Positions 13,597 through 55,012 of a stretch of DNA of 64,000 nt are shown here, piece after piece. The stretch covers positions 558,001-622,000 of the forward strand of contig NZ_LWHJ01000011.1 of assembly GCF_001652725.1 (NCBI RefSeq), in the 5' to 3' direction. Under the pieces are notes generated by a model. The model worked only from the letters and a program-made list of their open reading frames with translations, was not told the origin of the DNA and ran no database searches. Both the position numbers and the translations under genes were made by a program. The DNA comes from Pedobacter psychrophilus (GTDB taxonomy: Bacteria; Bacteroidota; Bacteroidia; Sphingobacteriales; Sphingobacteriaceae). The stretch's first letter is position 1. Every line of letters starts with the position of its first letter.

Positions 13597-13624
13597 ATCA
13601 ATTAATAAATCTAAAATATTAGAA

Positions 13625-16140: not shown

Positions 16141-16142
16141 TT

Positions 16143-16931
16143 ATGGATTTAAAATTAAACGATAAAGTAATAATTGTAACAGGTGGCGCCAAAGGTATCG
16201 GATTGGGAATTGTTGAAGCATTAGCTGCTGAAGGTGCAATTCCGGTAATCGTGGGTAGAAAGTATACTGATAACCAAAAGGAAGTAGATAGAATTAAAAA
16301 GCTAGGATATAAGGCATTTGCGGTGGAGGCTGAATTGACCAAACCCGAAGAATGCGAAAAAGCTGTTAAAGAGGTAATCAAAGAATTTGGGAGGATACAA
16401 GGAATAGTGAACAATGCAGGTTTAAATGATGGTGTTGGATTAGAAAATGGTACCTATGAAGGATTTATAGAAAGTCTGCATCGAAACTTAGTTCACTATT
16501 ATCTAATTGTTCATCATGCTTTGCCCGAGCTGATTAAATCTAAAGGAGCAATCGTAAATATAAGTTCTAAAACGGGAGAAACAGGGCAAGGAAATACTTC
16601 TGCTTATGCGGCTGCTAATGGAGGAAGAAACGCATTGACCAGAGAATGGGCGGTAGAATTATTGAAATACAATATACGTGTAAATGCTGTTGTTGTTGCC
16701 GAATGTTGGACTCCTCAATACGAAAAATGGATAACCACCTTACCAAATCCAGAAGAGAAATTAAAAGAAATTACGTCAAAAATTCCGTTAGAAAATAGGA
16801 TGACCACGGCTCAAGAAATTGCCGATACAGTTGCCTTTCTTTTAAGTGAAAAATCCAGTCATACAACCGGTCAGATTTTATATGTTGATGGAGGTTATGT
16901 TCATTTAGACAGAGCATTAGCAAATGCTTAA
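16143..16931 (+). CDS. SDR oxidoreductase, probable L-fucose dehydrogenase with Asn in place of the catalytic Lys
   Basis: Short-chain dehydrogenase of 262 residues. The ATG at 16143 gives MDLKLNDKVIIVTGG, the usual start before the TGGAKGIG nucleotide-binding loop. NNAGLNDGVGL, RNLVHYY, IVNISSKTGETGQG and the ending YVDGGYVHLDRALA closely resemble known L-fucose (L-galactose) dehydrogenases from Burkholderia and Xanthomonas as I remember them. It would oxidise L-fucose to L-fuconolactone with NAD(P). Oddity: the normal Tyr-x3-Lys pair reads Tyr155-Ala-Ala-Ala-Asn159, so the lysine is replaced by asparagine, while Ser and Tyr remain. The rest of the fold is well conserved, so this may be a lineage-specific active-site variant rather than a dead enzyme. 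Confidence 0.85.
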   Translation: MDLKLNDKVIIVTGGAKGIGLGIVEALAAEGAIPVIVGRKYTDNQKEVDRIKKLGYKAFAVEAELTKPEECEKAVKEVIKEFGRIQGIVNNAGLNDGVGLENGTYEGFIESLHRNLVHYYLIVHHALPELIKSKGAIVNISSKTGETGQGNTSAYAAANGGRNALTREWAVELLKYNIRVNAVVVAECWTPQYEKWITTLPNPEEKLKEITSKIPLENRMTTAQEIADTVAFLLSEKSSHTTGQILYVDGGYVHLDRALANA

Positions 16932-16996
16932 ATCGGAAAAACAGGAACGGTATTTTACATCTACTTAAAAGAAGGAAAAATAAAAAATCAATATTT

Positions 16997-18789: not shown

Positions 18790-20184
18790 ATGCGAAAAAT
18801 AACCCTATGCGCTGTACTTGTTTTCTATTTTTTTAACGGAATTGCTGCTATAAAACTTCCTGCTTTGGTAGGTAATAACATGGTTTTACAGCAACAAACG
18901 GAGGTAAAAATTTGGGGTTGGGCAAAAGCAGGAAGTAAGATTTCTATTTCGCCTACTTGGGAAACTAAAACTTATACCACCAATACCGCAAAAAATGGAA
19001 CTTGGCAAACTGTTATAAAAACACCAATTCCGGGTGGACCATATCAGATAAAATTAAGTGGGGACGGCGATTTAAAATTAAGTAATATTCTAATTGGCGA
19101 AGTTTGGGTTTGTTCTGGTCAGTCTAATATGGAAATGGCTATGCGTGGAAATTCATCACCTATTCTAAATGCCAATCAGATTATTTTAGATGCAGATCAT
19201 CCTAACATTAGGCTTTTTAAGGTAAAATCCACCAGTTCTATTTCTCCATTGGATGATGTTAAAGGTCAATGGGATCAATCAAGATCGGCTACAGCCAGAG
19301 AATTTAGTGCCATTGGTTATCAATTTGCCGAGATTTTAAACAAAAAATTAAATGTTCCTATCGGGATGATCATGTCTACAGTTGGCGGAACCATGGTAGA
19401 AGCTTGGATGAGTAATACAGCTTTATCGGCATTTCCTCAGATGAAAATTCCATCAACTTTAGAGGGTAACAATTATCCGCATAGAGAACCTACTGCACTT
19501 TTTAATTCGATGGTTGCACCGCTTTTAAAATATAACATTAGAGGGATTATCTGGTTGCAAGGAGAAAGTAACCGACATGAGTCCGAACTTTATGAGCAAC
19601 TTTTCCCTGCAATGGTTAGCGATTGGCGTAAACAATGGGGAATTGGCGAGTTCCCTTTTTATTACGGTCAAATTGCCCCTTATGGCTCTACCGATACCAC
19701 GAGAAGCGGAGCAAGATTACGTGAGGCTCAATTAAATGATATGGATATCATCCCAAATAGTGGAATGGCCGTTTTGTTAGATGTAGGTATGGAAAACGAT
19801 ATCCATTTTATGGATAAAACCATTCCGGCGCAACGCTTGGCTTATTGGGCTTTGGGAAAAACTTATGGAATTCCCGGCATCGCTTATCAATCTCCAAAAT
19901 ATAAATCGATGAAAATTGAGGGTAATAAAGCAATTTTAATTTTTGATTATGCACCTTATTTAACCAGTTATAGAAAACCATTAACATTGTTTGAAGTAGC
20001 TGGAGAAGATAAAGTTTTTCATCAGGCGAAAGCCACTATAGAGAAAAACACAGTAACGGTTACTAGCGAAGACGTTAAAAAACCTGTTGCCGTAAGATAT
20101 GCTTATAAAGAGTGGGTAATGGGAGAGTTGTATAATAACGATGGTTTGCCAGCATCTTCTTTCCGTACTGATGACTGGAAATAG
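18790..20184 (+). CDS. sialate O-acetylesterase-type carbohydrate esterase
   Basis: Secreted SGNH-fold carbohydrate O-acetylesterase of 464 residues (SIAE family). A signal peptide (MRKITLCAVLVFYFFNGIAA) is followed by a small beta domain starting LPALVGNNMVLQQ. The catalytic Ser112 sits in VCSGQSNMEM, and the catalytic Asp/His are likely in ENDIHFMDK (His339). The ending DGLPASSFRTDDW is typical. SIAE homologues in polysaccharide-utilisation loci remove acetyl groups from many glycans, so no sialic acid is implied. It is the first of three esterase genes with gaps of 4 and -1 bases, so they form an operon. The first esterase domain of the protein at 29040-32276 is a paralogue. Confidence 0.9.
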   Translation: MRKITLCAVLVFYFFNGIAAIKLPALVGNNMVLQQQTEVKIWGWAKAGSKISISPTWETKTYTTNTAKNGTWQTVIKTPIPGGPYQIKLSGDGDLKLSNILIGEVWVCSGQSNMEMAMRGNSSPILNANQIILDADHPNIRLFKVKSTSSISPLDDVKGQWDQSRSATAREFSAIGYQFAEILNKKLNVPIGMIMSTVGGTMVEAWMSNTALSAFPQMKIPSTLEGNNYPHREPTALFNSMVAPLLKYNIRGIIWLQGESNRHESELYEQLFPAMVSDWRKQWGIGEFPFYYGQIAPYGSTDTTRSGARLREAQLNDMDIIPNSGMAVLLDVGMENDIHFMDKTIPAQRLAYWALGKTYGIPGIAYQSPKYKSMKIEGNKAILIFDYAPYLTSYRKPLTLFEVAGEDKVFHQAKATIEKNTVTVTSEDVKKPVAVRYAYKEWVMGELYNNDGLPASSFRTDDWK

Positions 20185-22563: not shown

Positions 22564-25500
22564 GTGAAAATAATTTTTAAACCAATTTTTTGTTTCTTAT
22601 TGATTTTCTTTTTGGGAGGGAGAATTTTTGGACAAATTCAATCCATTAATTTTAAACATTTAACCATAAATGAAGGTCTTTCACAAAACACTATTTATTG
22701 CACTTTTCAGGATAAAAAAGGATTTATTTGGGTAGGCACAGAAGATGGCTTAAACCGATTTGATGGTGTAGATTGGCTTATTTTTAAGCATGAACTTAGT
22801 AACAAACATAGTTTATCTAACAATCAGGTAAATGATATTGCACAAGCCGAGGATGGTAAATTAATTATTGCAACTGCCGATGGTTTAAATGTTTATGATC
22901 CTGCAAAAGATATTTTTAATAGGGTAAATTTACATACTTCTAAGGGGCAAATCAATGAGTTTGTAAGCTCAGTATTTAAAGATAGTAAAGGGAGGTTTTG
23001 GATAGGAAGTAGAGATGGTTTAAAATTATTAAATCAAGAAAAAACAGCCATCCAAAAATCATTTAGTTTTAATCCAAATAAAGGCGGTTTAAATCCTGAA
23101 AAAATCCTGAATACTTTTGAATCAAACAATGGGCAACTTTGGGTAAATACTGGTACAGGCTTAAAATTATTCAATTTAAAATCGCTTCAATTTGAAAATT
23201 TACCTAAAGAAATTGCTAATAATAAGGTTTTAAATGAAGGCAATATTAGGGTAATCAAACAGGATAATATCAATAATTTTTGGTTTGGTACAGAAGCTAA
23301 TGGTCTATTTTATTATGATGTTGCCAAACAAACCATCATCAACTATAGAAATAATCCAGTTGCAAATAGTATTGCTTCTAATGTGGTTAGAGATGTTTTC
23401 TTTTACTCACCAACAGAAATTTGGATAGGCACAAGAGATGGTTTAAGTATTTTGAACTTAGAAACACAGCGTTTTAATAATTATGTGTATGATAAGTATA
23501 ACCCTAATAGTTTATCCCATAATTCTGTCCGCAATTTTTTAAGGGATAATGCGGGAAGTATTTGGTTAGGAACGTTTGCCGGAGGATTAAATATTTTTTA
23601 TGAGAGTAGTAGAAACTTCAATTATTTAGGAGAAAAATTAGGGAATGATTTAGGTTTAAACCACAGGGTTGTAAGTGCAATAAACCAGGAACCTGATGGA
23701 GGTTTATGGGTTGGGACCGAGGGCGGAGGTCTAAATTACATTGATAGGGCAAAAAATATCAGTCGTTTTTATCCAATTATTAACTTGGCAAATAACGGTA
23801 GCAATATTGTGAAGTGTTTGGTTGATGATGGTAAGGGGAAAATTTGGTTGGGTACGTATAATGGAATCAGTATTTTTGATAAAAAATCTCAAACATTTAG
23901 TGGTTTATTTAAATCAAGTTCTGATTTAAACTCTTCACAAAACTATCAAATTCATGATTTAGTTTTAGACGGCAATATCAGTTATATTGCAACTAACGGT
24001 AAGGGATTGATTATCCAATCACCTACAGAAACACAAGAATTAACCTATAATCAGAAAGACAATTCTACCATCAGTTCTAATAATTTAACCACTTTATTAA
24101 AGTTGGGGAATAGCTTATGGATTGGTTCTCAACGTGGATTAAATAAATATAACATTAACCAAAAAACATTTACAAGGTATTTAAATGAAGAAAATGATTT
24201 GAATTCGCTTTCTGCCAATTCAATTTTATGTTTATATAACGATAAAGAAGATAATTTATGGGTAGGAACAGAAGGTGGAGGAATAAATTTTTACGATAGT
24301 AAAAACAATAAATTTAAAGCCATTACTACAGCCAATGGCTTATCTAACAACGTAATACATAGTTTAATACAAGATAACGATGGTTTTTTATGGGCAAGTA
24401 CAAATAAAGGGATTTCAAAAATAAATATCCAAGCTTATCTAAAAGATTCTAAAAAAGTTTCAGTTATAAATTACAATGTTTCTGATGGTTTACAAAGTAA
24501 TCAGTTTTCTAATGAAGCAGTTGCAAAAGGAATAAACGGAGAATTGCTTTTTGGTGGAATTAATGGTATTACTTCTTTTTTCCCTGCTAAAATTAAGGCC
24601 AATGAATTTAAACCGAGAGTGGTTTTAACAGATTTTTTTATCCGTAATAAAGAGGTTTCCATTAACACCGAGGATTCTCCTTTAATCAATCAAATAGAAG
24701 AGACTGATGAGTTAACCCTAAGTTATGATCAAGCCTATTTTACTATAAAGTATGCTGCGTTAAACTTCATAAATCCAGAAAAAAATAATTATGCCTTTAA
24801 GTTAGAAGGTTTTAATGACGAGGATTGGAACGAGGTTGGTAATCAGAGGACGGCAACTTATACCAATTTAAGTCCGGGAAATTACGTTTTTAAGGTTAAG
24901 GCTTCTAATAACGATGGAGTTTGGAATGACCAGATAAGGACTTTAAAAATTAAGATTTTACCTCCTTTTTGGAAAACTTGGTGGGCTTATTTATTATACT
25001 TATCTATCATTGCGGGACTTTTATATTTGTATTATATATATTCTATAAGAACTGCTAAACTTAAAAACGAACTTGCTTTTGAGCATCAAAGTCATGAAAA
25101 GGATCAAGAATTAGCCCAACGTAAACTTGCCTTTTTTACCAATATTTCTCATGAGATTAAAACACCATTAACATTGATACTGGCTCCGGTAGAAAAACTT
25201 ATTGAATTGAACGCTGGGAACAATTTAGTTCAGAATCAGTTGGCTTTAATGCAAAGAAATGGTGAACGATTAGTTCGTTTAATTAACCAATTGCTAGACT
25301 TTAGAAAATTTGAAAGTGGTAAAATTAGGTTAAGAGCCGCTGAAGGTAATATGGTGAGATTTGTAAAGGAAGTTACCATGGCTTTTGATTCTTATGCAAA
25401 ATATTTAAAGATCAATTTGGTGGTTGATGTACAATCTAATAGCATTAAAACTTATTTTGATAGGGATAATTTCGAGAAGATAATTTACAACTTACTTTCT

Positions 25501-26730
25501 AATGCTTTAAAATTTACACCAGAAGGCGGGACAGTTAGGGTAGGAGTTAGGCAAGATATTAAAGATGATGGGGAAGGGTTTGTTTGCATTTTTGTAGAGG
25601 ATAATGGAAAAGGAATCCCAGAAAATTATATCGATAAAATATTTGATGAATTTGATCATAGCAATAATGATGACGATAATCCTTTAGGGACGGGAATTGG
25701 GCTTGCATTTACCAAAGCTTTAGTTCAACTTCATCATGGAAATATTACCGTACAAAGTGAAGAAACCACACGAATCAATAAAGGTTTTACGAAATTTACG
25801 GTTAAGATTCCTCTTGGTAGAAAGCATCTTTCTGAAGATGAGATTATAGAAAATTACAAAACCAGTGAAGATATTAAGCTTTATAGTTTAGATGAGGGAA
25901 ACATTGGCAATAGCGTAATTATTGAAGAAAAGAAACAGAAGTTTTTAGCAGACGCAGGGGATGAAGCTCCAATTATGTTAATTGTAGAAGATAATGCAGA
26001 AGTCCGTGATTTTTTAAAGGAACATTTCGAAAAATCTTTTAATGTACATACTGCCGAAAACGGGAAAATAGGTTTAGAAAAATCTTTAGAATTGATACCT
26101 GACATTATAATTAGCGATGTAATGATGCCTGAAATGACAGGTACAAAACTTTGTAACGAGATAAAATCTAATCAGGCAACTAGTCATATTCCAGTGATTT
26201 TACTTACTGCCCGTACTCCTTTAATCTTTAAGATAGAAGGCCTAGAAACTGGTGCCGACGATTATATCACGAAACCTTTCAGCATGAAAGTTGTGGAAAC
26301 AAGGGTTTGGAATTTACTAGAATTACGTAGACAATTACGTGAGCGTTATCGTAAAGAAATTTCTTTAGAACCTAAAAACATTGCTCTTAGTTCACCTGAT
26401 GAACGTTTTATAGAAAAGGTAATGAAGTTTATTGAAGACAATATTGGCGAACCCACCTTAAATGTAGAGGCTCTAGGAAAGGAAGTTGGAATGAGTAGGG
26501 TAACACTTTATCGTAAAATTAAAGGCTTAACCAATCAAACCACCATTGAGATTATCAGAAACGTCCGTATAAAAAGAGCCGCACAGTTATTAGAAACCAA
26601 ACATTATAATGTGAGTGAAGTGGCTTATATGGTTGGCTTTACTGATTTAGATTATTTTAGAAAATGTTTTAAAGAGCAGTTTAAAAAAACCCCTAAAGAT
26701 TACGGAAATTCTAAAGAAAAGGAAGTGTAA
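22564..26730 (+). CDS. hybrid two-component sensor-regulator (HTCS), second copy
   Basis: Membrane sensor-regulator of 1388 residues. The first codon is GTG; no in-frame ATG lies nearby that keeps the signal peptide (MKIIFKPIFCFLLIFFLGG). Order of parts: propeller repeats (WVGTEDGLNRFDG and many more, about 30-690), Y_Y_Y domain (about 745-805), membrane helix (about 807-830), HisKA with His863 in NISHEIKTP, ATPase (LLSNALKFTP; DNGKGIP; GTGIGLAF), receiver with Asp1185 in ISDVMMPEM, and an AraC-type DNA-binding domain (about 1285-1380). It lies downstream of the esterase operon and close to the SusCD genes, which are likely targets. It is a distant paralogue of the HTCS at 3981-8165, with different sensor blades. 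Confidence 0.95.
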   Translation: MKIIFKPIFCFLLIFFLGGRIFGQIQSINFKHLTINEGLSQNTIYCTFQDKKGFIWVGTEDGLNRFDGVDWLIFKHELSNKHSLSNNQVNDIAQAEDGKLIIATADGLNVYDPAKDIFNRVNLHTSKGQINEFVSSVFKDSKGRFWIGSRDGLKLLNQEKTAIQKSFSFNPNKGGLNPEKILNTFESNNGQLWVNTGTGLKLFNLKSLQFENLPKEIANNKVLNEGNIRVIKQDNINNFWFGTEANGLFYYDVAKQTIINYRNNPVANSIASNVVRDVFFYSPTEIWIGTRDGLSILNLETQRFNNYVYDKYNPNSLSHNSVRNFLRDNAGSIWLGTFAGGLNIFYESSRNFNYLGEKLGNDLGLNHRVVSAINQEPDGGLWVGTEGGGLNYIDRAKNISRFYPIINLANNGSNIVKCLVDDGKGKIWLGTYNGISIFDKKSQTFSGLFKSSSDLNSSQNYQIHDLVLDGNISYIATNGKGLIIQSPTETQELTYNQKDNSTISSNNLTTLLKLGNSLWIGSQRGLNKYNINQKTFTRYLNEENDLNSLSANSILCLYNDKEDNLWVGTEGGGINFYDSKNNKFKAITTANGLSNNVIHSLIQDNDGFLWASTNKGISKINIQAYLKDSKKVSVINYNVSDGLQSNQFSNEAVAKGINGELLFGGINGITSFFPAKIKANEFKPRVVLTDFFIRNKEVSINTEDSPLINQIEETDELTLSYDQAYFTIKYAALNFINPEKNNYAFKLEGFNDEDWNEVGNQRTATYTNLSPGNYVFKVKASNNDGVWNDQIRTLKIKILPPFWKTWWAYLLYLSIIAGLLYLYYIYSIRTAKLKNELAFEHQSHEKDQELAQRKLAFFTNISHEIKTPLTLILAPVEKLIELNAGNNLVQNQLALMQRNGERLVRLINQLLDFRKFESGKIRLRAAEGNMVRFVKEVTMAFDSYAKYLKINLVVDVQSNSIKTYFDRDNFEKIIYNLLSNALKFTPEGGTVRVGVRQDIKDDGEGFVCIFVEDNGKGIPENYIDKIFDEFDHSNNDDDNPLGTGIGLAFTKALVQLHHGNITVQSEETTRINKGFTKFTVKIPLGRKHLSEDEIIENYKTSEDIKLYSLDEGNIGNSVIIEEKKQKFLADAGDEAPIMLIVEDNAEVRDFLKEHFEKSFNVHTAENGKIGLEKSLELIPDIIISDVMMPEMTGTKLCNEIKSNQATSHIPVILLTARTPLIFKIEGLETGADDYITKPFSMKVVETRVWNLLELRRQLRERYRKEISLEPKNIALSSPDERFIEKVMKFIEDNIGEPTLNVEALGKEVGMSRVTLYRKIKGLTNQTTIEIIRNVRIKRAAQLLETKHYNVSEVAYMVGFTDLDYFRKCFKEQFKKTPKDYGNSKEKEV

Positions 26731-27289: not shown

Positions 27290-28963
27290 CTATTGAAAAA
27301 TAAACTTTTTAGTTAAAGTCTCACCTGCAAAGGTTAAAGAAGCAATGTGTAAACCAGCACCAGCATTCTGACTGCTTAAGTTAATTTGGTTACTCCCAAC
27401 TTGTAAGCTAACATTTTGTTTAGCAACAACTTTTCCACCAGCATCATAAACATTTAACACACCTTCTCCACTTTTATTAGAGAAAACGTTTACATTAATT
27501 TGTCCACTTGCTTTGTTGGCATAAACAGAAATTGCAGCTGCTTGTCCGTTGACAGTGACTACAACTGGACCAAACTCTTCACTTTTTCCGTTATTATCAA
27601 CTTGATTCAATTTGTAATAATTAGCACCAGTAACTGCATTTTTATCTAAAAAAGAATAATTTAAGGCAACGTCAGAATTTCCATTACCAGCAACTTCACC
27701 AATTTTAGAAAACTGAGTTCCATCTGTAGAACGCAAAATATCAAAATGGTTATTGTCTTTTTCTGATGAAGTAGTCCAGCTTAGTTGTGCACCATTTAAA
27801 GTGCTTTTTCCTGTGAAAGAAGAAAGTTTGATTGGTAATACAATATGTGGAATGGTAGATGCGTCAGTACCTGGTGTAAAAGCAATTCCTTTAAAAAGTG
27901 TATTAGCTGGCGCAGTGGCTAATGTAGTTAAAGTAGTATTAGCATCAGAAATAGTTTTATTAGAACTTAATGTATCTCTAAAAGCAACTATACTAGCGTT
28001 AGTGTTTGCATATACAAAAACTGTATCCCCAATAATTCTACCTGTTATCCCTTTTACACTTAATGCTGCAGTTGCAACTGATGCCGTAACTGTTCCTTTT
28101 AATTCCCAAATTGCAGAAGGCATAGCCAAGGGATTATATCTCCATTTCTCAATTTTACCTGTATCATCATTTGTAGCATAAATAAGATTAGGATCACCAG
28201 CGCCAACAGTTGATTTTAATAATACAATTTGATTTGGAAAAGTAGGTAAAGTACTCATTCCGGGCAGTGCTACTGGTGTGGTATTTGCATTATTTACAAC
28301 AGTACTTTTAGGTAATTTATTAGCATCAGATGCTGAGGTTATAGTGCCAACGTGGGCTCCAGCACTACTATTAGTTGTTTCATACAATTGTCCATTATAA
28401 ATATTAACACTTCTAAATGCTGTTACTGTAGAATGCACACCTGTAGATGCAGTTTGTGTATTAATGTCAATATACCTTACTCCCGCACCTGATGAAGCTA
28501 GCCAAAAACCAGTTCCGTCTATAGTAATTGCACAACGTGGATTACCTAAGGTAGCAGTAGTACTATAGGTAGTTGTATTTATTGCCCCGTTTGCATTAAT
28601 TAGACCTAATGTCCTATTATTATTTCCACTAAGAGTTATTCCAGCATTAACTGCATAACCAAATGCTGTTAAATAGGTCCCATTTGGAGATAATGTAAGT
28701 AATCCTTCATTGCCAGTTGCAGTGTTTCCTGTTAACTGTTGGTTGGCGCCAGAAACTGTTGTTGGTAATGCTAAAGTAAATGTAGGTGTAGTTTGAAGAG
28801 GTCCTGTAACTTTAAATTCTTTTAAGATAACCGGAACAGCATTGGCATCTAAAGGATCTGTTTCATTACCATATTGTGAAACCACTAACCTATTGGCAGT
28901 AAATTGCGCAAATGCGCCAAATGCAAAGGCGATTAAGCCTGTTGTAAGTAATGTTTTTCTCAT
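27290..28963 (-). CDS. T9SS cargo protein of unknown function
   Basis: Secreted protein of 557 residues. Signal peptide MRKTLLTTGLIAFAFGAFAQ is followed by a Thr/Ala/Asn-rich region (about 22-375) with short beta-strand-like repeats (LLTLSPNGTYLTAFGYA; AITIDGTGFWLASS; YIDINTQ) that could form a beta-propeller. Then comes the IKLSSFTGKSTLNGAQLSWTTSSEKDNNHF-type fibronectin-like module (about 378-470) and a type IX sorting tail (about 480-557, ending LTKKFIFQ). No catalytic motif was recognised. A surface or extracellular role is inferred from the tail. It is separated from the next minus gene by 76 bases. Confidence 0.75.
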   Translation of the reverse strand: MRKTLLTTGLIAFAFGAFAQFTANRLVVSQYGNETDPLDANAVPVILKEFKVTGPLQTTPTFTLALPTTVSGANQQLTGNTATGNEGLLTLSPNGTYLTAFGYAVNAGITLSGNNNRTLGLINANGAINTTTYSTTATLGNPRCAITIDGTGFWLASSGAGVRYIDINTQTASTGVHSTVTAFRSVNIYNGQLYETTNSSAGAHVGTITSASDANKLPKSTVVNNANTTPVALPGMSTLPTFPNQIVLLKSTVGAGDPNLIYATNDDTGKIEKWRYNPLAMPSAIWELKGTVTASVATAALSVKGITGRIIGDTVFVYANTNASIVAFRDTLSSNKTISDANTTLTTLATAPANTLFKGIAFTPGTDASTIPHIVLPIKLSSFTGKSTLNGAQLSWTTSSEKDNNHFDILRSTDGTQFSKIGEVAGNGNSDVALNYSFLDKNAVTGANYYKLNQVDNNGKSEEFGPVVVTVNGQAAAISVYANKASGQINVNVFSNKSGEGVLNVYDAGGKVVAKQNVSLQVGSNQINLSSQNAGAGLHIASLTFAGETLTKKFIFQ

Positions 28964-29039: not shown

Positions 29040-32000
29040 CTAGTTTTTCAAGAATTTACTTTCTCCTATTAATTTATTGGTATTCGCATCGTTAACTCTT
29101 AAAATGTAAACTCCTGTTTTCAATTCTTGGATATCTTGTTGTATCAATTCATCCTCAGAAAAACTTAATTGTTTCATCAATTTGCCTTGAAGATTATATA
29201 TGGCTACTTTAACTTGAGTATTCTGCGCTGCTTTTAAATTGACAAATATTTTCTCTTTTGTAGGATTAGGATAAATCATAATGGCAAAATCATTTCCATT
29301 ATCCAACAAGTCAAAGGTTAATGCTACCACATCTGAAATTGAAATTTTTCCGTCTAAATCATATTGAACTAGCCTATAATAGTTTACACCGTTATTTGGA
29401 TTTTTTTCCGTAAAAGAATAGTTATTTAAAGCTGAGGAAGTTCCTTTGCCTTTAACAGTTGCAATGTTTGAAAATAGTTTTCCATCTGTAGAACGTTCCA
29501 ACTCAAAACGGTCATTATTTAATTCTGAAGCAGTAGTCCATTGAATTAATGCCCCTTCTGTTTTTTTGGTTGCAGTAAATTTGGTTAATGTTACTGGTAG
29601 AGTAGTCAAAACGCCTTTCATTGCATCTGCATATCTTTGACCTAGGATAACAGCAGAAGCAGTATTAAAATGCGTAATATCTCCTATGTCTGTTAATCCA
29701 GCAGAAGAAACTAATGCTGTAAAAGGAACATCTGCATTAACTCCGGGCATTACAGCTAAAATGTTACCATATTTAGTAGGGTTTGCTGCATATCGCCCCA
29801 TCTCTCCAAAAACAAATGGTAATTTAGGTTGATTGAAAGTTGTCCGGAAATTACTGATTAAAGCCTTAATATCTGTAACCCAAGAGCTGGCCCTACTGTT
29901 ATCCGCTTCTCCTTGATGAAATAATATTCCTTTTAAAACTCCTTTGGTTTGCGCTGCTAAAACGTATTTAACAGATTCATCATAAATACTTTTATTGGTG
30001 CGTGTATTGGTAACTCCAGGAGCGAAAACTGATATACTTTGACCACCTATTGCTGTGGGTATTAAACCAATAGTAACATTAGGGTCTGCATTTTCTAGCA
30101 TCTTAACTGCAAAGGATATTCCGGGTCCAACTTGGGCTTCGCCTGGCTCTAATTCGCCATGTAATGGATTGGTTGCTTTAACCCAAGTTCCATCTAGCTT
30201 TAACATCTTAATCCGAGGATTAGGAACGTAAGTATCCTGAGATAATGAACCCCTACCGCTCATGTTAGATTGTCCCGTCAATAAATAAACGTGGAAATTA
30301 CTATCTACATCAATGTCATAGTTTTTTGTACGAAAAGAAGATGCTGGCAAATCATCTCCATTAAATAAATTACCCACTACAAAGTTTGAGAATGCATATC
30401 GTACAAAAGCAGGATTTAATACTTGAGCAGGATTAGTGGCAACAACCTCAATTTGATTTGTTAAATTATTAATCACGGCTGTAGCAGGAACAAAAACTTT
30501 ATCGCCTCCAGCTATTTCAAAAAGTGAAGTGGCATTTCCTTTAATTTTTAAGCCGGTAGCATAATTAAAAGAAAGCGTTGCTTTATTTCCTAAAAACGAA
30601 ATCGATTTAAATTCAGGACCTAAATATGGAATATTAGTAAATCCATAAGTTTTATTTAAAGCAATAAATGATAAACGATTTGCTGGAGTTGTTTTATCCG
30701 CATAATGAATTTCGTTAGCCTCTCCAACTTCCATTGGTAAACTAATTCCTGTGTTTGGAATAGATTTATAAGAATCATATAATACCTCACGCATTATAGC
30801 TCCACCAAATGGAACTGAATAATTATTTGGTGCTATTTGGACAAAATAGAATGGAAGATTTGTGTCATTCCATTTACTTCTATAATCAGTAATCATTGCG
30901 GGAAACAACCGCTTGTATAAATCTGGTTCTTGCCTATTACTTTCTCCCTGATACCATATAAAACCTTTAATTCCGTAACCAGCCACAGGACTTACCATTC
31001 CATTATATACAGAAGTGGGTGTTGCTTTATCATTATCTAAAGTAATTGGGACTGTAACTTCAGGAAACGGCTTTAAGCTCTCTTTACTCATTAAAGATTG
31101 AATAGGAATTCCACCAACAGCAGTAACAATTACGCCTACAGGAACATTTAATTTAGCTTTTAATGCTAATGCGTATTGATAAGCAATAGCACTAAAAAAT
31201 TCGGCATTTGTAGGATTCGCTTCATTCCAAGTTCCGGTTAGGTTTGTTTTTGGATCAATAGATAAAGTAGTAGGAAGTGTAAACATCCTTAAGTCCGGAT
31301 CATTTGCAGCGTTAATAAGGGCTTGTCCATTTGCAATTGGAGAGGTAACTGGATTACTACCAAAACCTTTTAACCTCATTTCCATATTTGACTGACCAGC
31401 GCAAAACCAAACCTCTCCAAGTTTTATATTATTGATAGTTTTAGAATGGCCATCTTCATCTTTTGCCTCTATAGAATAGCTTATGCCATTTGCAACTGGT
31501 GTAGCAACATTAATCCTCCACATTCCATTTATGTCAGTAATGCCTGTGTAGGCAGTGTTATTCCAGGAAGGAGTTACTGTAATTTGTGTACCGATACCAG
31601 CAAAGCCAAATAGAGGAGTCGCAGTTTTTTGTTGCTGGATAATGGCATAATCACTAAAAAGATTGTTGAAAGTTACAGGTACTGTATTGGTTGATGGAGA
31701 TGGGGTATCACTGATTACCAATTCAGGTTTATTTGTAGCGTCTTCTTTCTTATTAAAAACTATAGTCTTATCAGAATTTGAAGGATCACTTAATCCAAAA
31801 CTTACAATAGTATTTGTAGCTAAAAGGGTTTTAAAATAATTTGTTACATCCCATTCATAGTAAACACCGCTTGCCGTAATATTTACTGATGCTAAAGCGG
31901 TATTAAGGGCTGGGCGGTTATTATAATTTAAAGTAGATTCTACCCAGTTTTCTGAGGTACTTGATACCACAACGTTAGAACTTGAACTTGCTGGATAGGA

Positions 32001-32276
32001 ATTAACAAACATTCTAAATTTGGCAGATTTAACATCCGCAACAGCGGTGGTACCTAAATCAAATTTGACATACCCAATCCTTGTTTGCCCAGATGGTGAA
32101 CCTTTTATTTGAAAAGTAGTACTGCCGTAGTTATTTGTTGCCCCGCCTTGCCAAACAGATGCATCAGCTATTGGATTAAGTGTAGTGATGATTTGTGCAA
32201 TTCCCGTAAAGGAGCAAAGCATGTAGATTAAAGTTAATAAGGCAGTATAAGCTAGCTTAGTAAATGTTTTGATCAT
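29040..32276 (-). CDS. two-domain carbohydrate esterase with DNRLRE/CBM96-like module and T9SS tail
   Basis: Large secreted protein of 1078 residues with an unusual order of modules. After the signal peptide comes a DNRLRE/CBM96-like beta sandwich (about 30-190; ADASVWQGG, YVKFDLGT, WDVTNYFK). A full SIAE-type SGNH esterase follows (about 200-650; Ser296 in CAGQSNMEM, NEIHYADK, ending DLPASSFRTKNYD). Directly after it is a second, CE6-like SGNH esterase (about 660-900; Ser670 in LTGQSNMSGRG, His in DITHFN). Last are a fibronectin-like module and a type IX sorting tail. Both active sites look intact. It probably removes two kinds of acetyl group from the same glycan at the cell surface. It is divergent from the SusC gene. 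Related single-domain esterases are at 18790 (first half) and 54194 (second half). Confidence 0.9.
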   Translation of the reverse strand: MIKTFTKLAYTALLTLIYMLCSFTGIAQIITTLNPIADASVWQGGATNNYGSTTFQIKGSPSGQTRIGYVKFDLGTTAVADVKSAKFRMFVNSYPASSSSNVVVSSTSENWVESTLNYNNRPALNTALASVNITASGVYYEWDVTNYFKTLLATNTIVSFGLSDPSNSDKTIVFNKKEDATNKPELVISDTPSPSTNTVPVTFNNLFSDYAIIQQQKTATPLFGFAGIGTQITVTPSWNNTAYTGITDINGMWRINVATPVANGISYSIEAKDEDGHSKTINNIKLGEVWFCAGQSNMEMRLKGFGSNPVTSPIANGQALINAANDPDLRMFTLPTTLSIDPKTNLTGTWNEANPTNAEFFSAIAYQYALALKAKLNVPVGVIVTAVGGIPIQSLMSKESLKPFPEVTVPITLDNDKATPTSVYNGMVSPVAGYGIKGFIWYQGESNRQEPDLYKRLFPAMITDYRSKWNDTNLPFYFVQIAPNNYSVPFGGAIMREVLYDSYKSIPNTGISLPMEVGEANEIHYADKTTPANRLSFIALNKTYGFTNIPYLGPEFKSISFLGNKATLSFNYATGLKIKGNATSLFEIAGGDKVFVPATAVINNLTNQIEVVATNPAQVLNPAFVRYAFSNFVVGNLFNGDDLPASSFRTKNYDIDVDSNFHVYLLTGQSNMSGRGSLSQDTYVPNPRIKMLKLDGTWVKATNPLHGELEPGEAQVGPGISFAVKMLENADPNVTIGLIPTAIGGQSISVFAPGVTNTRTNKSIYDESVKYVLAAQTKGVLKGILFHQGEADNSRASSWVTDIKALISNFRTTFNQPKLPFVFGEMGRYAANPTKYGNILAVMPGVNADVPFTALVSSAGLTDIGDITHFNTASAVILGQRYADAMKGVLTTLPVTLTKFTATKKTEGALIQWTTASELNNDRFELERSTDGKLFSNIATVKGKGTSSALNNYSFTEKNPNNGVNYYRLVQYDLDGKISISDVVALTFDLLDNGNDFAIMIYPNPTKEKIFVNLKAAQNTQVKVAIYNLQGKLMKQLSFSEDELIQQDIQELKTGVYILRVNDANTNKLIGESKFLKN

Positions 32277-32655: not shown

Positions 32656-35600
32656 ATGAGTTTATTTTTCCAAAATTTGCGCTTAAAGCGCTTGTTGGGT
32701 TTATCTCTTTTAATTGCATTAATTTCTATTGACAGCCTAATGGCGCAAGAAATGGTAATTATGGGAGTTGTAAAAGACGTTGGAGGCGAAACATTGCCAG
32801 GCGTTAGTGTGAAAGTAAAGGGTGGGAGCTCTTCCTCTCAAACAGGAATTAATGGAGCTTACACCATCAAAGTGCCAAATAAAGAATCAATCTTAATTTT
32901 CTCTTTTGTTGGTTTTACTGATATTGAAAAAAGTGTCTCTTTAGGTACTGTAATAAATGTAACTCTTGAAGAAAAATTAAGTAGCCTTAATGAAGTAGTA
33001 GTTGTAGGTTATGGAACGCAAAAGAGAAGTGAAGTAACGGGTTCTATTGGGTCTATTAAAGCAGACCAGATTGATCAATTTTCTGGCGGATCTTTAAATA
33101 CCAGTTTACAGGGTAAAATTGCAGGTTTACAAATTACAACTGAATCCGGAGAGCCTGGTTCGGGAGCAACTTTTAATCTTAGGGGAGTTTCTTCAATTAA
33201 TGGTGATAGCTCTCCTTTGATAATCATTGATGGTGTACCTGTTAATAACGATACTTATTCATCTGCTTCAGATGGTGCAGGTTTTAGCCCATTAGCAGAT
33301 ATAAATCCTTCGGATATTGCTTCTATTGAAGTTTTGAAAGATGCGGCAACAGCATCAATTTACGGCTCAAGAGCTTCTAATGGCGTTGTTTTAATAACCA
33401 CCAAAACTGGGGCAGGTACAGTTCCAACTATTAACTTTTCTATAAATAGCAGTATAGTAGGCATTTCTCGTAAAATTGGAATTTTAAATGGCCCTCAATT
33501 TAGAGATGCGTTTATCGAATCTATTTTCAATGCATCTGCTGCTGGTATTTCTACATCAAAAGTTTCTGTGATAGATTCATTGCATCCTTATTATAGCCAA
33601 ACTCAAAATTGGCAAGATATCATGTATAGAAATTCTTTACAATATAAAGCTGATTTAAGTGTGAGTGGGGCTTCTAAAGATAAAAACATGAATTATTTTA
33701 TAAGCGTGGGCTATAAAGATTTAAAACCTGTAATAGTTGAAACTGGTTATAAACAATTTACAAGTGCAGCAAGGGTTAATTATAATATTACCGATAAAAT
33801 AAAGGGATCTACAAATTTTAACATCTCTAATTATACTTATGATAGATTAAATACTGGTGGTGGAACAGGAAGTGTAATTTTTAGATATTTAATTACTTTG
33901 CCAGTTTATAATCCTTATGATCCTATAACTGGTCAAATCATTCCATTATTTGAAGGCACAAAAATAAGTCCTTTGGCACAAGCTATTTATACTGAAAATG
34001 CAATTAACAGATCGCGTTTATATGGAAAGCAAGAATTGACCTTTAACATTATTAAAGGTTTAGATTTTAAAACAAGCGTGGGTTTAGATTACAGTAATAC
34101 AGAAACTAATTATTTCACTCCGTCTATTTTCCAAACGGATGGTAAAAATGTTTACACAGATTATCGCCCTGTGGTAAATAATTCCTTTACAAATAATAAC
34201 ACGCTAACCTATCAACGTACTTTCAATAAAAATCATAATGTAAATATTTTATTGGGTCAAGAATATCAAACTTATAAATCTAGTAGTTATAATTTTAGAG
34301 GAACAGATTTTATAGATGATAACATTACCAGTTTAGCAGGTGCTGGAAATATCACCTCATTTGGGCATGGCGAGAGTGAAAATAGACTATTATCTTTTTT
34401 TACCCGCTTAAATTATAACTATAAATCTAAATACATTGTTTCTTTATTAATGAGACAAGATGGTTCTTCAAGATTTTCTGCAGATAACAGACTAGCATAT
34501 TTTCCATCTATATCTACAGGATGGAGATTTACAGAAGAAGCTTTCTTTAAAAATAAAAACTTTTTAACCGATGGTAAATTAAGGATTGGATATGGTATTA
34601 CAGGTAACCAAGGTATTGGAGATTTTGCGGCAATAGGGGCATTCACTAAACAAAGCACCTATTTAGGTCAGTCATCTATTGTACAATCTGCTTTGGATAA
34701 TCCAAATTTAAAGTGGGAAACTACCAAGCAATTGGATATTGGTACAGATTTGCAATTCTTTAAAGGACGGGTAAATCTAACTGTAGACTATTATTCAAAA
34801 AATTCAGAAGATCTATTGTTCAATGTCCAAGTTCCAAGTCAAACCGGTTTTGGTTCAATTCCTTATAACTTTGGTAGTTTGGAAAACCATGGTTTTGATT
34901 TTCAATTAGATGGGATAGTATTGCAAAAAGCAGTTACGTGGAATAGCATCATCACCTTTGGTTTAAACAGAAATAAGGTAACATCATTACCAAATGGCGA
35001 TGATTATCGTCCAAATAGCACAAGTTTAGCAAGGGTTGGTGTTCCTGTTGGTGTTTTCTATGGCTATAAATCACTTGGTGTTTATGCAAAAGATGCTGAT
35101 AATGTATATAAAACTGATGCTAATGGTGCTGCAATACCTTATCGTAAAGGTTCTGCAAATGGTGCTATTTATAAAGGTGGAGATGAAATTTATGAGGATT
35201 TAAATGGTGATGGAGTAATCAACAATTTGGATTTACAAGTTATTGGTAATCCAACTCCAAGTTATTTTGGAGGATGGCAAAACACTTTTACTTATAAGAA
35301 CTGGAACTTTAGCGCATTTTTTAACTACACCATAGGAAATGATGTGTTTAATTCTATCAGAAGAGCACAAGATGGTTACCAATTTGACGCTAATTTCTCC
35401 ACAGACCAACTAAGAAGATGGAGAACACAAGGTGATGTAACGGATATACCTAGGTTAGTAAAAACGGATCCAATGGAAAATTACGCTATATCTTCACGAT
35501 TTGTTGAAGATGCATCTTTCATTAGACTTCAAACTGTTAGTTTAGGATATAACCTTCCTAGTAAACTAACATCAAGATTAGGCATTAAAGGTGCAAATAT

Positions 35601-35751
35601 AGGTGTAAGTGGTCAAAATTTAATTACATGGGGTTCTTATTCAGGATATGATCCTGAAGTAAGTTCTGGTGGTACATTATCAGCAGGAGTTGATAATGGC
35701 TCATTCCCAAAATTGCGTTTCTATAATTTATCTTTAAACGTTAAACTATAA
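32656..35751 (+). CDS. susC: SusC/RagA-type TonB-dependent outer-membrane transporter
   Basis: Outer-membrane glycan importer of 1031 residues. Signal peptide (about 1-30), a carboxypeptidase-like regulatory domain (about 33-108; GVVKDVGGETLPGVSVKVKG), then the TonB-box/plug region with NEVVVVGYGTQKRSEVTGS, the SusC signature LQGKIAGLQI, GVSSINGDSSPLIIIDGVPV and SIEVLKDAATASIYGSRASNG (about 110-250), followed by the beta barrel ending in LSLNVKL. It is intact and full length. The SusD gene starts two bases after its stop. Together they import oligosaccharides released by the surface enzymes of the neighbourhood. The substrate cannot be read from sequence. Confidence 0.97.
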   Translation: MSLFFQNLRLKRLLGLSLLIALISIDSLMAQEMVIMGVVKDVGGETLPGVSVKVKGGSSSSQTGINGAYTIKVPNKESILIFSFVGFTDIEKSVSLGTVINVTLEEKLSSLNEVVVVGYGTQKRSEVTGSIGSIKADQIDQFSGGSLNTSLQGKIAGLQITTESGEPGSGATFNLRGVSSINGDSSPLIIIDGVPVNNDTYSSASDGAGFSPLADINPSDIASIEVLKDAATASIYGSRASNGVVLITTKTGAGTVPTINFSINSSIVGISRKIGILNGPQFRDAFIESIFNASAAGISTSKVSVIDSLHPYYSQTQNWQDIMYRNSLQYKADLSVSGASKDKNMNYFISVGYKDLKPVIVETGYKQFTSAARVNYNITDKIKGSTNFNISNYTYDRLNTGGGTGSVIFRYLITLPVYNPYDPITGQIIPLFEGTKISPLAQAIYTENAINRSRLYGKQELTFNIIKGLDFKTSVGLDYSNTETNYFTPSIFQTDGKNVYTDYRPVVNNSFTNNNTLTYQRTFNKNHNVNILLGQEYQTYKSSSYNFRGTDFIDDNITSLAGAGNITSFGHGESENRLLSFFTRLNYNYKSKYIVSLLMRQDGSSRFSADNRLAYFPSISTGWRFTEEAFFKNKNFLTDGKLRIGYGITGNQGIGDFAAIGAFTKQSTYLGQSSIVQSALDNPNLKWETTKQLDIGTDLQFFKGRVNLTVDYYSKNSEDLLFNVQVPSQTGFGSIPYNFGSLENHGFDFQLDGIVLQKAVTWNSIITFGLNRNKVTSLPNGDDYRPNSTSLARVGVPVGVFYGYKSLGVYAKDADNVYKTDANGAAIPYRKGSANGAIYKGGDEIYEDLNGDGVINNLDLQVIGNPTPSYFGGWQNTFTYKNWNFSAFFNYTIGNDVFNSIRRAQDGYQFDANFSTDQLRRWRTQGDVTDIPRLVKTDPMENYAISSRFVEDASFIRLQTVSLGYNLPSKLTSRLGIKGANIGVSGQNLITWGSYSGYDPEVSSGGTLSAGVDNGSFPKLRFYNLSLNVKL

Positions 35752-35753
35752 TC

Positions 35754-37337
35754 ATGAAAAATATAAGATATAATTTAAATTTTAGCGTCGGGGCATTAAT
35801 CCTATTAACATTAGGAATGTCTTCATGTAAAAAAATATTGGATGTAGAACCAACCACACAATATGCGTTAGGAAATTATTTCCAATCAACCAAACAAGCA
35901 GATGCAGCATTATTAGGTGCATATCATCAATTGCAAATAGCAACTAATCAAGAATTTATTTACTATGGCGAAGGAAGGGCAGATAATGTAATAAGGGGAG
36001 CTGGTTCTATAACTAGTAATACTTTAGGTGTTCTCAACAATACATTAGATGGCAATTTAAGCTATGCCCAATGGGATTCTTATTATTCTGTTATAAAACA
36101 GGCAAACTTAATATTAAAAAATGTACCATTAATGAGAACAAAAGGTATTTTAATTGCAGATGCTGATTATAATAGAATATTAGGACAAGCTTATGGCTTA
36201 AGAGCATTATGTTATTTGAACATCGTTAAGATTTGGGGTGATGCGCCATTGGTTACCCAACCAATAGAGGATGTTAAAGATATAAATGATTTAAAAACTC
36301 CTAGAGTTGATAAACAATTAATTTATAATTTAATTTCAGCTGATTTAAAAAAGGCAGTTCCATTAACTCCGACTACAAATGCAACTAATGATTTAACCAG
36401 GGGTAAATTAACTAAAGCAGCTATATATTCCATCCAAACTGATTATTACATGTGGCGCAATATGCCAGATAGTGCTTTAATTTCATCTGGTTTAATAATA
36501 AAGCCAGCAGATGGAACACCAGTTTCTAGTACTTACAGTTTAGTAGAATTATATAATGCTACAGCAAATTATAGTTTTGCAAATACGTCTATTGATGATT
36601 CACCATATTCGAAAATGTTTGTTGATGGTTTATCTACTGAATCTATCTTTGAGGTTGTTTTTAGTTTTGATGAAGAAAATACTTCTAACATCTTTGGTAT
36701 TTACGGTAATAATAATGCTCAGTTTTATGCTAATTCAGAATTTAGCTCATCATTTGGTAACGATTTGAGAGGAATTGCAAACTTTAAAAATGATGTTCAA
36801 ATTTACAAACAATTTCCTAAAGGAACATTTGACCAAACAACCCAAAATGATAAGAATGTGATTTTATATCGTTTAGCGGATATCATGTTATTAAGAGCAG
36901 AGGCTTTAAATACAAAAGGTGATAGAAACGGAGCTTGGACATTGATTAAAAAAATAAGGGAGAGAGCCTATGGACCTGTAGAAGTACAAACTACTATCCC
37001 CAATCCTAACCCTGCTTTACCACCAACTTTTGTGATCAATAATCCAAATACTCGTAACAGTATATCATCCGGGCCAACCAGTGAAACTGCAAAGGCTAGT
37101 TTTTTTGCTGCAAGTTTAAATGAAGCAGAAGATATTATTTTAAACGAACGAAGAAAAGAGTTGGCATTTGAGGGAAAACGCTGGTTTGATTTGGTTAGAA
37201 CAGGACGTGTTTTCACAACAATAAACCCTACAACACTAAAACCATTGGTAGTAAATGCTGAAAATATTTTATGGCCTATTGGCTTAGATGTAATCAGACA
37301 AAATACCAACATTATACAAAACGAATATTATAAATAA
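35754..37337 (+). CDS. susD: SusD/RagB-type surface glycan-binding lipoprotein
   Basis: Lipoprotein of 527 residues that forms the lid of the SusC transporter. The signal peptide ends in a lipobox (GMSSC, Cys24 or so) followed by KKILDVEPTTQYALGNYFQS, the usual SusD start. The tetratricopeptide-like helices include YGLRALCYLNIVKIWGDAPLV, and the C-terminal RagB part has LADIMLLRAEALN, NERRKELAFEGKRWFDLVRTG and the closing LWPIGLDVI. It is adjacent to SusC and to the lipoprotein gene at 37339 (one base gap), forming a three-gene operon. Confidence 0.96.
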   Translation: MKNIRYNLNFSVGALILLTLGMSSCKKILDVEPTTQYALGNYFQSTKQADAALLGAYHQLQIATNQEFIYYGEGRADNVIRGAGSITSNTLGVLNNTLDGNLSYAQWDSYYSVIKQANLILKNVPLMRTKGILIADADYNRILGQAYGLRALCYLNIVKIWGDAPLVTQPIEDVKDINDLKTPRVDKQLIYNLISADLKKAVPLTPTTNATNDLTRGKLTKAAIYSIQTDYYMWRNMPDSALISSGLIIKPADGTPVSSTYSLVELYNATANYSFANTSIDDSPYSKMFVDGLSTESIFEVVFSFDEENTSNIFGIYGNNNAQFYANSEFSSSFGNDLRGIANFKNDVQIYKQFPKGTFDQTTQNDKNVILYRLADIMLLRAEALNTKGDRNGAWTLIKKIRERAYGPVEVQTTIPNPNPALPPTFVINNPNTRNSISSGPTSETAKASFFAASLNEAEDIILNERRKELAFEGKRWFDLVRTGRVFTTINPTTLKPLVVNAENILWPIGLDVIRQNTNIIQNEYYK

Positions 37338-37338
37338 G

Positions 37339-38850
37339 ATGATGAGTAATTTAAAACTATTTAAAGCAGGTGTAATAGTTGCATTTGTATTTTTATCATT
37401 TGAGTCTTGTAAAAAGTTTGAAGTACTTAGTAATATAGACCCTGATATTGTTACTGCAGGAGAAAACCTAAAAGCTCAGACTGTTTGGGAGTTTATATCT
37501 AGTAGGAGCACCAATAGATCTATAGACACACTAAAATCATTAAATCTTTATGCAGCTGCTATTGAAAGGGTTGGATTAAAAGATTTGTTAAACGGTGAAG
37601 GAGATTTCACTGTTATTGCTCCACGCAATGAGGCCATGAAATCACTAGCATTAGAATTGGGTTATCCTACTATTGATGCAGTACCATCTGCCCTCTTAAA
37701 AAATTATTTTCTAGATAATATCATCTCTAAAAGAGTAAAATCTTTTGATTTAGAAATTAGTAAATTCCAAGTGGTCGAAACTTTAAATGGGGATAGCTTA
37801 TCATTTGTGAGGCAGCCATCTTCTACAGATCAATATGTGTTTAATTTGTACAATTCTCCAACTTTTTCAACAGCTTTAGTAAAAGTTCGCTCTCAAAATT
37901 TAGAATGCAAAAATGGTGTAGTACATGTTGTAGATGCTATCACTAGTTTTAGACCTAAATTTTTGCCTGCAGAGGCAGGAAAAGCTGCAGGTGATACAAT
38001 AATAGTAGCCAAAGATGCCTATTTGAACAATGGAAGTTCTGCATTAAAGGGCACCAATTATGGAAGTTTAGATTATATGTGGATTAAAAAAAATAATGAT
38101 GCTAATATAACACGTAGATCAATCACTCAATTTCCCGTTAAAGCAGCATCTTTTCCAGAGCCTATTTCTAGTGCAACCTTAGGATTGTTTGTTACGAGAA
38201 GCGATAATCCGGGTGGGACTGTATCTGTTTATAGAGATCAACAGGTAGATTGGGGTGAAAATACTGTAAATTGGGCAAATTCACCCGTTCCTGGTACAGC
38301 ACCTTTATCAAGTGCAGAAATTAGACCATTTGTTACAAAAGGATGGTTTTATTTTGATGTAAGTACTGCTTATAAAACTGCTTTAGCCAATGGAGACCAA
38401 TATATTAACTTAGGCATAAACACAGCCGTAAATGCATTGTTTCAGTTTGCAACAAAAGAAACTAGAGATAGTAATTTAATACTTGGCGGATACAAAGCAT
38501 TTTTAGTTTTAACCCCGCCTGCTTCTACATTATTAGTTAATCCCGTTAATACGGGTTTAAGTGTTGATTTAGTGAAAGGCTATAAAAAAATCACTATTTC
38601 TGAACTTAGCTTTGGCGGAACTACCAATAATAACATTACTTATACTATTACCTCTAAACCACAAAATGGATTTTTAGTTGTTAATGGTCTTGTTAGCCCT
38701 AGCTTTACACAAGCACAAATAGAAAAAGGTGCTGTTAAATATTTATATTCTGGAACTGCAGCAGGAACAGACAGTTTTACAGTAGTGGCTAAGGATTTTA
38801 AGAATGGAACATTCCCAACTCCACAAGTTGTTAATATTCAGATTCAATAA
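37339..38850 (+). CDS. surface lipoprotein with fasciclin, DNRLRE/CBM96-like and cadherin-like modules
   Basis: Lipoprotein of 503 residues with lipobox ESC near residue 23. It occupies the place where SusE/SusF-like surface glycan-binding proteins are usually found. Modules: a fasciclin domain (about 45-205; NGEGDFTVIAPRNEAMK and NGVVHVVDAIT), a DNRLRE/CBM96-like sandwich (about 220-390; AYLNNGSSALKGTNYG, WGENTVNWANSPVPG, GWFYFDVSTAYKTAL) and a C-terminal CSPG/cadherin-like repeat (about 420-503; YTITSKPQNGFLVVNG, GAVKYLYSG). It probably binds the target glycan at the surface; the fasciclin domain may add adhesion. The operon ends at the terminator at 38870. Confidence 0.85.
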   Translation: MMSNLKLFKAGVIVAFVFLSFESCKKFEVLSNIDPDIVTAGENLKAQTVWEFISSRSTNRSIDTLKSLNLYAAAIERVGLKDLLNGEGDFTVIAPRNEAMKSLALELGYPTIDAVPSALLKNYFLDNIISKRVKSFDLEISKFQVVETLNGDSLSFVRQPSSTDQYVFNLYNSPTFSTALVKVRSQNLECKNGVVHVVDAITSFRPKFLPAEAGKAAGDTIIVAKDAYLNNGSSALKGTNYGSLDYMWIKKNNDANITRRSITQFPVKAASFPEPISSATLGLFVTRSDNPGGTVSVYRDQQVDWGENTVNWANSPVPGTAPLSSAEIRPFVTKGWFYFDVSTAYKTALANGDQYINLGINTAVNALFQFATKETRDSNLILGGYKAFLVLTPPASTLLVNPVNTGLSVDLVKGYKKITISELSFGGTTNNNITYTITSKPQNGFLVVNGLVSPSFTQAQIEKGAVKYLYSGTAAGTDSFTVVAKDFKNGTFPTPQVVNIQIQ

Positions 38851-54193: not shown

Positions 54194-55012
54194 ATGAAAA
54201 AACATTTCGTATCCATTTCATTATCTATTATTATCGCTTTTTTTGGTCTAATATTATTTTCATGCTCTAGCAAAAAAAAATCTATTTCCGCAGAAAATGC
54301 AATCTCTAATAAAGGATTAGAAATATATATATTAATGGGTCAATCTAATATGGCAGGAAGAGGACCGTTAATTCCAGAAGATAGCATCATTAAAAATAAA
54401 AATGTTTTGATGTTTACCAAAGATTTAAAATGGGTTGCAGCAAAAAATCCTTTACATTTTGATAAACCAGGAGTTACCGCAGTTGGGCCAGGCTTATCTT
54501 TTGGATTAGCGATGCAAGAGGCTCATAAATCCGCTATAATTGGATTGGTTCCTACGGCAGTTGGTGGAACTGCAATTAATTCATGGACAGTTGGAGGATA
54601 TGATAAAGCCACGAAAAAATATCCTTGGGATGATGCTGAAAAAAGAATTATTGAGGCCATGAAGTATGGTACTATCAAAGGTGTTTTATGGCATCAAGGA
54701 GAAAGCGATAGCAAAGCGGAAAATGCAGCTGTCTATCTTCCCAAACTTGAGGATTTAATCAAAAGAGTAAGAAAATTAGTAGGGAATGATAAATTGCCCT
54801 TTGTAGTTGGGCAGTTGGGAAGATACAATCCATCTTACGATAACATCAATAAAGAAACCGCAAAATTACCTGCTTTAGTTCCTTTTACGGCAATCGCCAC
54901 CTCTGAAGGTTTAACCGATAAAGGTGATAATACCCATTTCGATAGATCATCAGCAATTATTTTTGGTCAAAGATTTGCCAAACAGATGATAGAATTACAA
55001 AAAGTAAATTAA
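54194..55012 (+). CDS. CE6-like SGNH carbohydrate acetylesterase, lipoprotein
   Basis: Esterase of 272 residues. The N-terminal signal ends in a lipobox (LFSC, followed by SSKKKS), so it is anchored to a membrane, probably the outer membrane. The SGNH core has Ser51 in MGQSNMAGRG, VPTAVGGTAINSW, GVLWHQGESDS and the catalytic His248 in DNTHFDRSS. It belongs to the SASA/CE6-type acetylesterases. It is close to the second esterase domain of the protein at 29040-32276, so the same activity exists both free and fused. It is monocistronic and convergent with the isomerase gene. Confidence 0.88.
   Translation: MKKHFVSISLSIIIAFFGLILFSCSSKKKSISAENAISNKGLEIYILMGQSNMAGRGPLIPEDSIIKNKNVLMFTKDLKWVAAKNPLHFDKPGVTAVGPGLSFGLAMQEAHKSAIIGLVPTAVGGTAINSWTVGGYDKATKKYPWDDAEKRIIEAMKYGTIKGVLWHQGESDSKAENAAVYLPKLEDLIKRVRKLVGNDKLPFVVGQLGRYNPSYDNINKETAKLPALVPFTAIATSEGLTDKGDNTHFDRSSAIIFGQRFAKQMIELQKVN

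Follow-up and report, generated by a model that had tools for sequence, protein, structure and literature searches.

Tannerella forsythia NanS, to go by the title of its description, reportedly carries two acetylesterase modules of different regiospecificity in one polypeptide. In this comparison, which is by title alone, it shares with the protein described here the two acetylesterase modules in a single chain, but differs in that NanS acts on sialic acids. Multicatalytic CE6-CE1 esterases have been characterised in Bacteroides ovatus and Flavobacterium johnsoniae (PMC7110780), as has Fll4 of Flavimarina with one CE6 and two CE1 domains (PMC12247016), and according to the accessible portions of both articles their domains were assayed singly. 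For the B. ovatus enzyme the same portions report a benefit of the fusion; with the F. johnsoniae enzyme on beechwood none was seen (PMC7110780). Like our protein, these are fused carbohydrate esterases that include a CE6 domain and are encoded in PULs, but the partner domain, as described in those portions, is the alpha/beta-hydrolase CE1 in their case and a second SGNH domain of the CE20 type in ours. For CE20, the available text describes XacXaeA, Fl8CE20_II, PpCE20_II and mammalian SIAE with an SGNH core, flanking beta-sandwiches and an oxyanion-hole Gln, in which they are like the domain reported here; the first three hold an inserted ancillary domain that our domain, like SIAE, does without, and a water-mediated triad is given for the two full structures among them (PMC12313940).

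A fusion of CE20 and CE6-like domains was not seen in the open-access literature that we searched. Double acetylesterases are already known; the pairing of CE20 with a CE6-like domain is new as far as our searches reach, and what our analysis adds to the observation of the architecture is the history of the fusion.

Domain architecture of the fused protein

The window analysed here is a stretch of 64,000 nucleotides from Pedobacter psychrophilus. The original prediction assigned to positions 29040-32276 a single polypeptide with two different SGNH esterase domains, a DNRLRE module and a T9SS tail. The reading frame is as claimed and encodes 1078 aa on the minus strand, with an ATG start and no internal stop (Table 1), and profile searches with Pfam and NCBIfam recovered the two different SASA-type domains together with the CBM96/DNRLRE module and the tail. 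Pfam placed CBM96 at aa 31-189 (1.6e-32; 113 bits against a curated cut-off of 26) and Por_Secre_tail at aa 1001-1068 (1.5e-14), while NCBIfam matched DNRLRE_dom and TIGR04183, so that the T9SS sorting domain lies above the cut-offs of both PF18962 (54.4 bits, cut-off 27) and TIGR04183 (48.8 bits, cut-off 23). The Pfam SASA family spans both the CE20 and the CE6-like domain (5.9e-70 for the whole protein in two stretches, the best being aa 661-886). The founding member of CBM96 binds alginate, according to the accessible part of its description (PMC9971899).

Table 1. Features of the fused gene and of related genes in the window (positions are those of the window).
Feature	Position	Strand	Basis or remark
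Whole ORF, fused double esterase	29040..32276	-	1078 aa
Signal-peptide-like N-terminus, aa 1-28	32193..32276	-	by eye from the translation
CBM96/DNRLRE module, aa 31-189	31710..32186	-	Pfam, NCBIfam
CE20-type domain, aa 200-654: SGNH core with flanking beta-sandwiches, without inserted ancillary domain	30315..31679	-	homology, tree, model
Ser296, CE20 nucleophile (GQSNM)	31389..31391	-	same in 87/87 rows
His524, CE20 catalytic His	30705..30707	-	same in 87/87 rows
Fusion junction, aa 652-660 (NYDIDVDSN): homology to gene A stops, homology to gene B begins	30297..30323	-
CE6-like SASA domain, aa 657-889	29610..30308	-	Pfam, homology, tree, model
Ser670, CE6-like nucleophile	30267..30269	-	same in 21/21 rows
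Asp866-x-x-His869 motif	29670..29681	-	Asp and His each same in 21/21 rows
C-terminal region, aa 890-1078, including T9SS type A sorting domain (1001-1068)	29043..29609	-	Pfam, NCBIfam
SusC, SusD and fasciclin-CBM96 protein of the same PUL, divergent	32656..38850	+
Hybrid two-component regulator (HTCS)	22564..26730	+	homologue adjoins the GH136-CE6-like gene in G269
Single-domain CE20 relative, not parent	18790..20184	+
Single-domain CE6-like relative, not parent	54194..55012	+

The first esterase region (about aa 200-654) aligns with the CE20 structures 9ega (phmmer, 4e-70), 9h4u and 7kmm and with mammalian SIAE (8f9o-r). About ten residues (409-419) stand where 9h4u has about 187 (219-407), and the CE20 half is therefore of the type without the inserted ancillary domain. 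Its AlphaFold2 model (mean pLDDT 92.9, from a 35-sequence alignment) was closest in fold to 7kmm (TM 0.87/0.93, aligned over 463 columns) and has beta-strands at both ends, corresponding to the N- and C-terminal beta-sandwiches of CE20. The second region (aa 661-886) aligns with 1zmb and 2apj, and its model (mean pLDDT 92.8, from a 20-sequence alignment) best matched 1zmb (TM 0.85/0.71), with TM values of 0.80-0.83 against 2apj. A confident fold tells nothing about activity.

Relation to a tandem gene pair in Pedobacter

The closest relatives found of each half are two adjacent genes in Pedobacter sp. A84_bin7_2 (locus L068, NZ_JAVHXT010000013.1), which, unlike the window gene, encode one protein each, that of the second gene carrying a GH136-like beta-helix. 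Residues 3-654 of the fused protein match gene A (CBM96, CE20 and T9SS tail) at 55% identity, and residues 657-1078 match the next gene, B (CBM96, GH136-like beta-helix of about 508 aa, CE6-like domain and T9SS tail), at 63%. The two genes lie 8 nt apart, the start of gene B being set at the methionine of MIMIF, and the parts homologous to the fused protein are separated by 2705 nt. The CBM96 module of the fused protein is nearer to that of gene A (48%) than to that of gene B (37%), whereas in the C-terminal region the order is reversed, with 52% to gene B's tail and 35% to gene A's.

For the trees, the CE20 and CE6-like domains were aligned separately; a joint alignment of full-length and single-domain proteins placed CE6-like rows on the CE20 domain. 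In the CE20 tree, the window half and gene A are sisters with an SH-aLRT of 100 (quick method, no bootstrap). The CE6-like tree likewise joins the window half and gene B (100/97), followed by a GH136-CE6-like protein from another genome, G269 (95/85), and the row outside those three is a protein of 458 aa (L055) on a long branch and without a beta-helix label. The single-domain relatives that the original prediction had pointed out within the window do exist: the one at 18790 shares 42% with the CE20 half and the one at 54194 shares 43% with the CE6-like half. As parents of the fusion they were ruled out, both trees putting the halves with the genes of A84_bin7_2.

The G269 homologue of the beta-helix matches 7v6m (1.2e-41) and 6kqs (1.3e-21), and the domain resembles lacto-N-biosidase-type enzymes; the NCBIfam LnbX model matches gene B at 8e-19, but with 67 bits against a cut-off of 2500. 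We class the beta-helices of gene B and of the G269 protein as GH136-like. A search of the P. psychrophilus genome for the beta-helix of gene B gave no matches. On this sample of three loci, the sequences suggest that the link between the beta-helix and the CE6-like domain would be older than the window protein, which would have lost the beta-helix.

We posit that the window protein is probably best read as a T9SS-secreted, PUL-encoded double O-deacetylase whose gene arose from a tandem pair by in-frame deletion. In this event gene A would have lost its tail and gene B its signal, CBM96 and beta-helix, and what was left would have met at the domain boundaries, with just a few residues as linker. 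The two-gene state itself was observed at one locus, that of A84_bin7_2, whose SusC (35%) and SusD (24%) are distant from those of the window, and for this reason we infer it for the ancestor of the window locus. A decayed fragment in another genome of the genus (L067, 5846-6223; G012:C44:95842-96225) is 57-58% identical to aa 213-342 of the window protein and 48% to gene A, is flanked by stops and is probably the relic of a CE20 gene.

All genome sets searched for further fused copies contained one genome per species. With the full-length query, no other fused copy appeared among the matches listed for 60 relatives (at most 12 candidates scored per genome) or in 18 genomes of the genus, the own genome being included in both sets. 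A query of 215 aa across the junction (at most seven candidates scored per genome) gave 473 bits in the own genome; among the matches listed, the best other one reached 99.9 bits in 399 genomes of the family, with one side covered, and 90.2 bits in 395 genomes of the phylum, again including the own. These lists were sorted, and a good spanning match would rank high. A few weaker matches cross the junction (for example in G123, G325 and G144), with internal stop codons and therefore no open fused frames. When genome contigs were scanned with six short patterns, the two genes of A84_bin7_2 were the sole match to nearly the full query among the best 80 of 213 loci. Among the 1497 distinct ORFs with a length of 150 aa or more from the window and the collected loci, some of them cut at locus ends, both domains occurred only in the window ORF. 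Surveys with PF03629 in 38 relatives and in 60 genomes of the class, each including the own, found two full SASA copies in uncut rows only in the window frame, the remaining paired rows being halves of a single domain. Among the matches listed for plasmids, 74 records were hit, in none of which a single place spanned 80% of the query.

The joined frame might also be an assembly error, with the organism possessing two genes as in A84_bin7_2. Our searches of these one-genome-per-species sets brought up no second assembly carrying the fusion, and an error that dropped DNA would equally account for the missing beta-helix. Nevertheless, the reading frame continues across the join, which falls at domain boundaries, and the longest word common to both 100-nt flanks in A84_bin7_2 is 6 nt, so that there is no repeat on which the assembly could have collapsed. 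Composition is not abruptly different on the two sides (GC 0.35 and 0.39, GC3 0.20 and 0.24), and the genome is 99.92% complete. We regard an assembly error as very improbable.

Active sites of the two halves

Conservation was assessed in 87 CE20 rows (from 135 matching ORFs, after exclusion of those that scored below 255 bits or aligned over a short span) and in 21 CE6-like rows (from 43, with the bit limit at 100); the latter name is given by fold and motifs, and the aligned rows include no characterised CE6 sequence. The nucleophiles Ser296 and Ser670 had been numbered correctly in the original prediction and proved invariant, and its statement that both halves keep their nucleophile and His motifs was upheld by the alignments. 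In the CE20 set, Ser296, Gln443 and His524 occur in 87/87 rows and Gly388 in 83/87, with Gly388 and Gln443 as the oxyanion residues and His524 as the His of block V. Ser670, Gln788, Asp866 and His869 are the same in all 21 CE6-like rows, Gln788 standing within the SGNH fold in place of Asn, as the literature available to us in part describes for CE6.

The anchor position of the CE20 half, two residues before the His, is Glu522 in a column that is variable (the commonest residue, Asn, occurs in 31/87), and a dyad is therefore to be expected. The ancillary domain and water-mediated triad of the other CE20 subtype, whose anchor is Asp or Asn, were not found in this half. Glu522 in place of the anchor Asp was considered as a sign of inactivity and dropped, the column varying among CE20 domains without the insert.

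At other positions the CE20 half has changed more than its nearest relative, deviating at 8 of 82 columns conserved to at least 90%, against 2 of 82 in gene A. Gln499Leu and Asp516Glu fall where the other 86/86 rows have Gln and Asp, and Trp395Leu where Trp is conserved to 98%; with changes at family-invariant positions, activity of this half cannot be assumed. The CE6-like half and gene B are alike in this respect (5 of 60 and 5 of 59 conserved columns). It may thus be that the fusion was followed by loss or alteration of esterase activity in the CE20 half, which would then serve as a scaffold or binding part, with the CE6-like half alone deacetylating. The relative-rate test would agree with such a loss: it gave an excess of changes in the window CE20 domain with two of five outgroups (p 0.005 and 0.03), while p was 0.07-0.27 with the remaining ones. 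However, the catalytic Ser296, Gly388, Gln443 and His524 are retained, the structure model is confident, and the window domain, third of 87 by number of deviations and level with two other rows, is not unique. In addition, a dN of 0.31 suggests continued constraint, although dN/dS is not usable as a measure, dS being saturated or undefined. We consider a loss of CE20 activity rather unlikely.

Branch lengths exceed those of the A84_bin7_2 counterparts in both halves (CE20, 0.47 against 0.21; CE6-like, 0.36 against 0.11), which is suggestive of acceleration. Faster evolution of both halves after the fusion was not upheld by the Tajima tests, which were significant with 2/5 outgroups for the CE20 half and 0/4 for the CE6-like half.

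The surrounding locus and possible function

The gene lies between the HTCS (22564) and the divergent SusC/SusD pair (32656), with a gene for a T9SS-tailed protein (27290-28963) on its downstream side. The window locus also encodes GH3, GH2, a GH50-like protein, a CE15-type gene and UxuA. In G269, the GH136-CE6-like gene is found between homologues of the window HTCS (49%) and SusC (66%, cut at the locus end), and this PUL also holds homologues of SusD (53%), the fasciclin-CBM96 protein (42%), GH2 (57%) and the CE15-type gene (44%). Single-domain CE6-like and CE20 genes are adjacent there, an arrangement suggestive of joint use of the two activities.

Several further features of the window were observed. 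The fasciclin-CBM96-cadherin-like protein after SusD (37339-38850; G269 homologue 42%) is probably a surface glycan-binding protein. Adjacent genes at 39151-41421 and 41627-44182 encode proteins with T9SS tails and an N-terminal module in common with the G269 GH136-CE6-like protein; the second resembles the glycoside hydrolase 5t3b and agarases, and we take its family to be GH50. Genes at 10316-18157 (MFS transporter, galactarate/altronate-type dehydratase, two SDRs, FAA hydrolase, amidohydrolase and FMN dehydrogenase) presumably form a non-phosphorylative L-fucose-type pathway. Glycosyltransferase, polysaccharide-export and Wzz-like genes at 55109-63562 make up an exopolysaccharide cluster beside the degradation locus.

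Alternatively, both domains may attack the same acetyl esters and so be redundant, and their fusion would be neutral. The own genome holds three other CE20-type genes and one other CE6-like gene, and neither activity would therefore otherwise be missing. Yet the two domains are only about 25% identical and differ in their block V motifs, and the neighbouring single-domain genes in G269 suggest complementary use, which makes redundancy unlikely in our view. Removal of two classes of acetyl ester by a double esterase, as originally predicted, is plausible from the sequence. In the double O-deacetylase that we favour, CBM96 would anchor the enzyme on a putative acid-sugar polymer, the CE20 domain, with a Ser-His mechanism, would take off O-acetyl groups, and the CE6-like domain would use a Ser-His-Asp triad to take acetyl groups off other positions. 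Once deacetylated, the polymer could be cut by the GH2 and GH50-like enzymes that the locus encodes. As a more tentative suggestion, one deletion between adjacent T9SS esterase genes may have exchanged a GH136-type glycosidase partner for a second SGNH esterase; the short linker would fix the distance between the active sites, and neighbouring acetyls of two kinds might be stripped from one residue or disaccharide.

CE6-like SASA domains take varied partners, namely CE20 here and GH115 (G090, by Pfam), GH28 (G169, by Pfam) and GH136-like (G269) elsewhere; in these last three proteins, encoded at L150 (2200-5025), L151 (2624-4951) and L148 (3782-6991), the CE6-like domain is the C-terminal partner. 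CE20 domains without the ancillary insert, in turn, are found in multidomain proteins with a T9SS tail. If our reading is true, the window protein would be a natural snapshot of the birth of a double enzyme. Domain fusion in PUL enzymes can be put to a direct test here, since relatives of both pre-fusion proteins exist and fused and unfused forms can therefore be compared for synergy.
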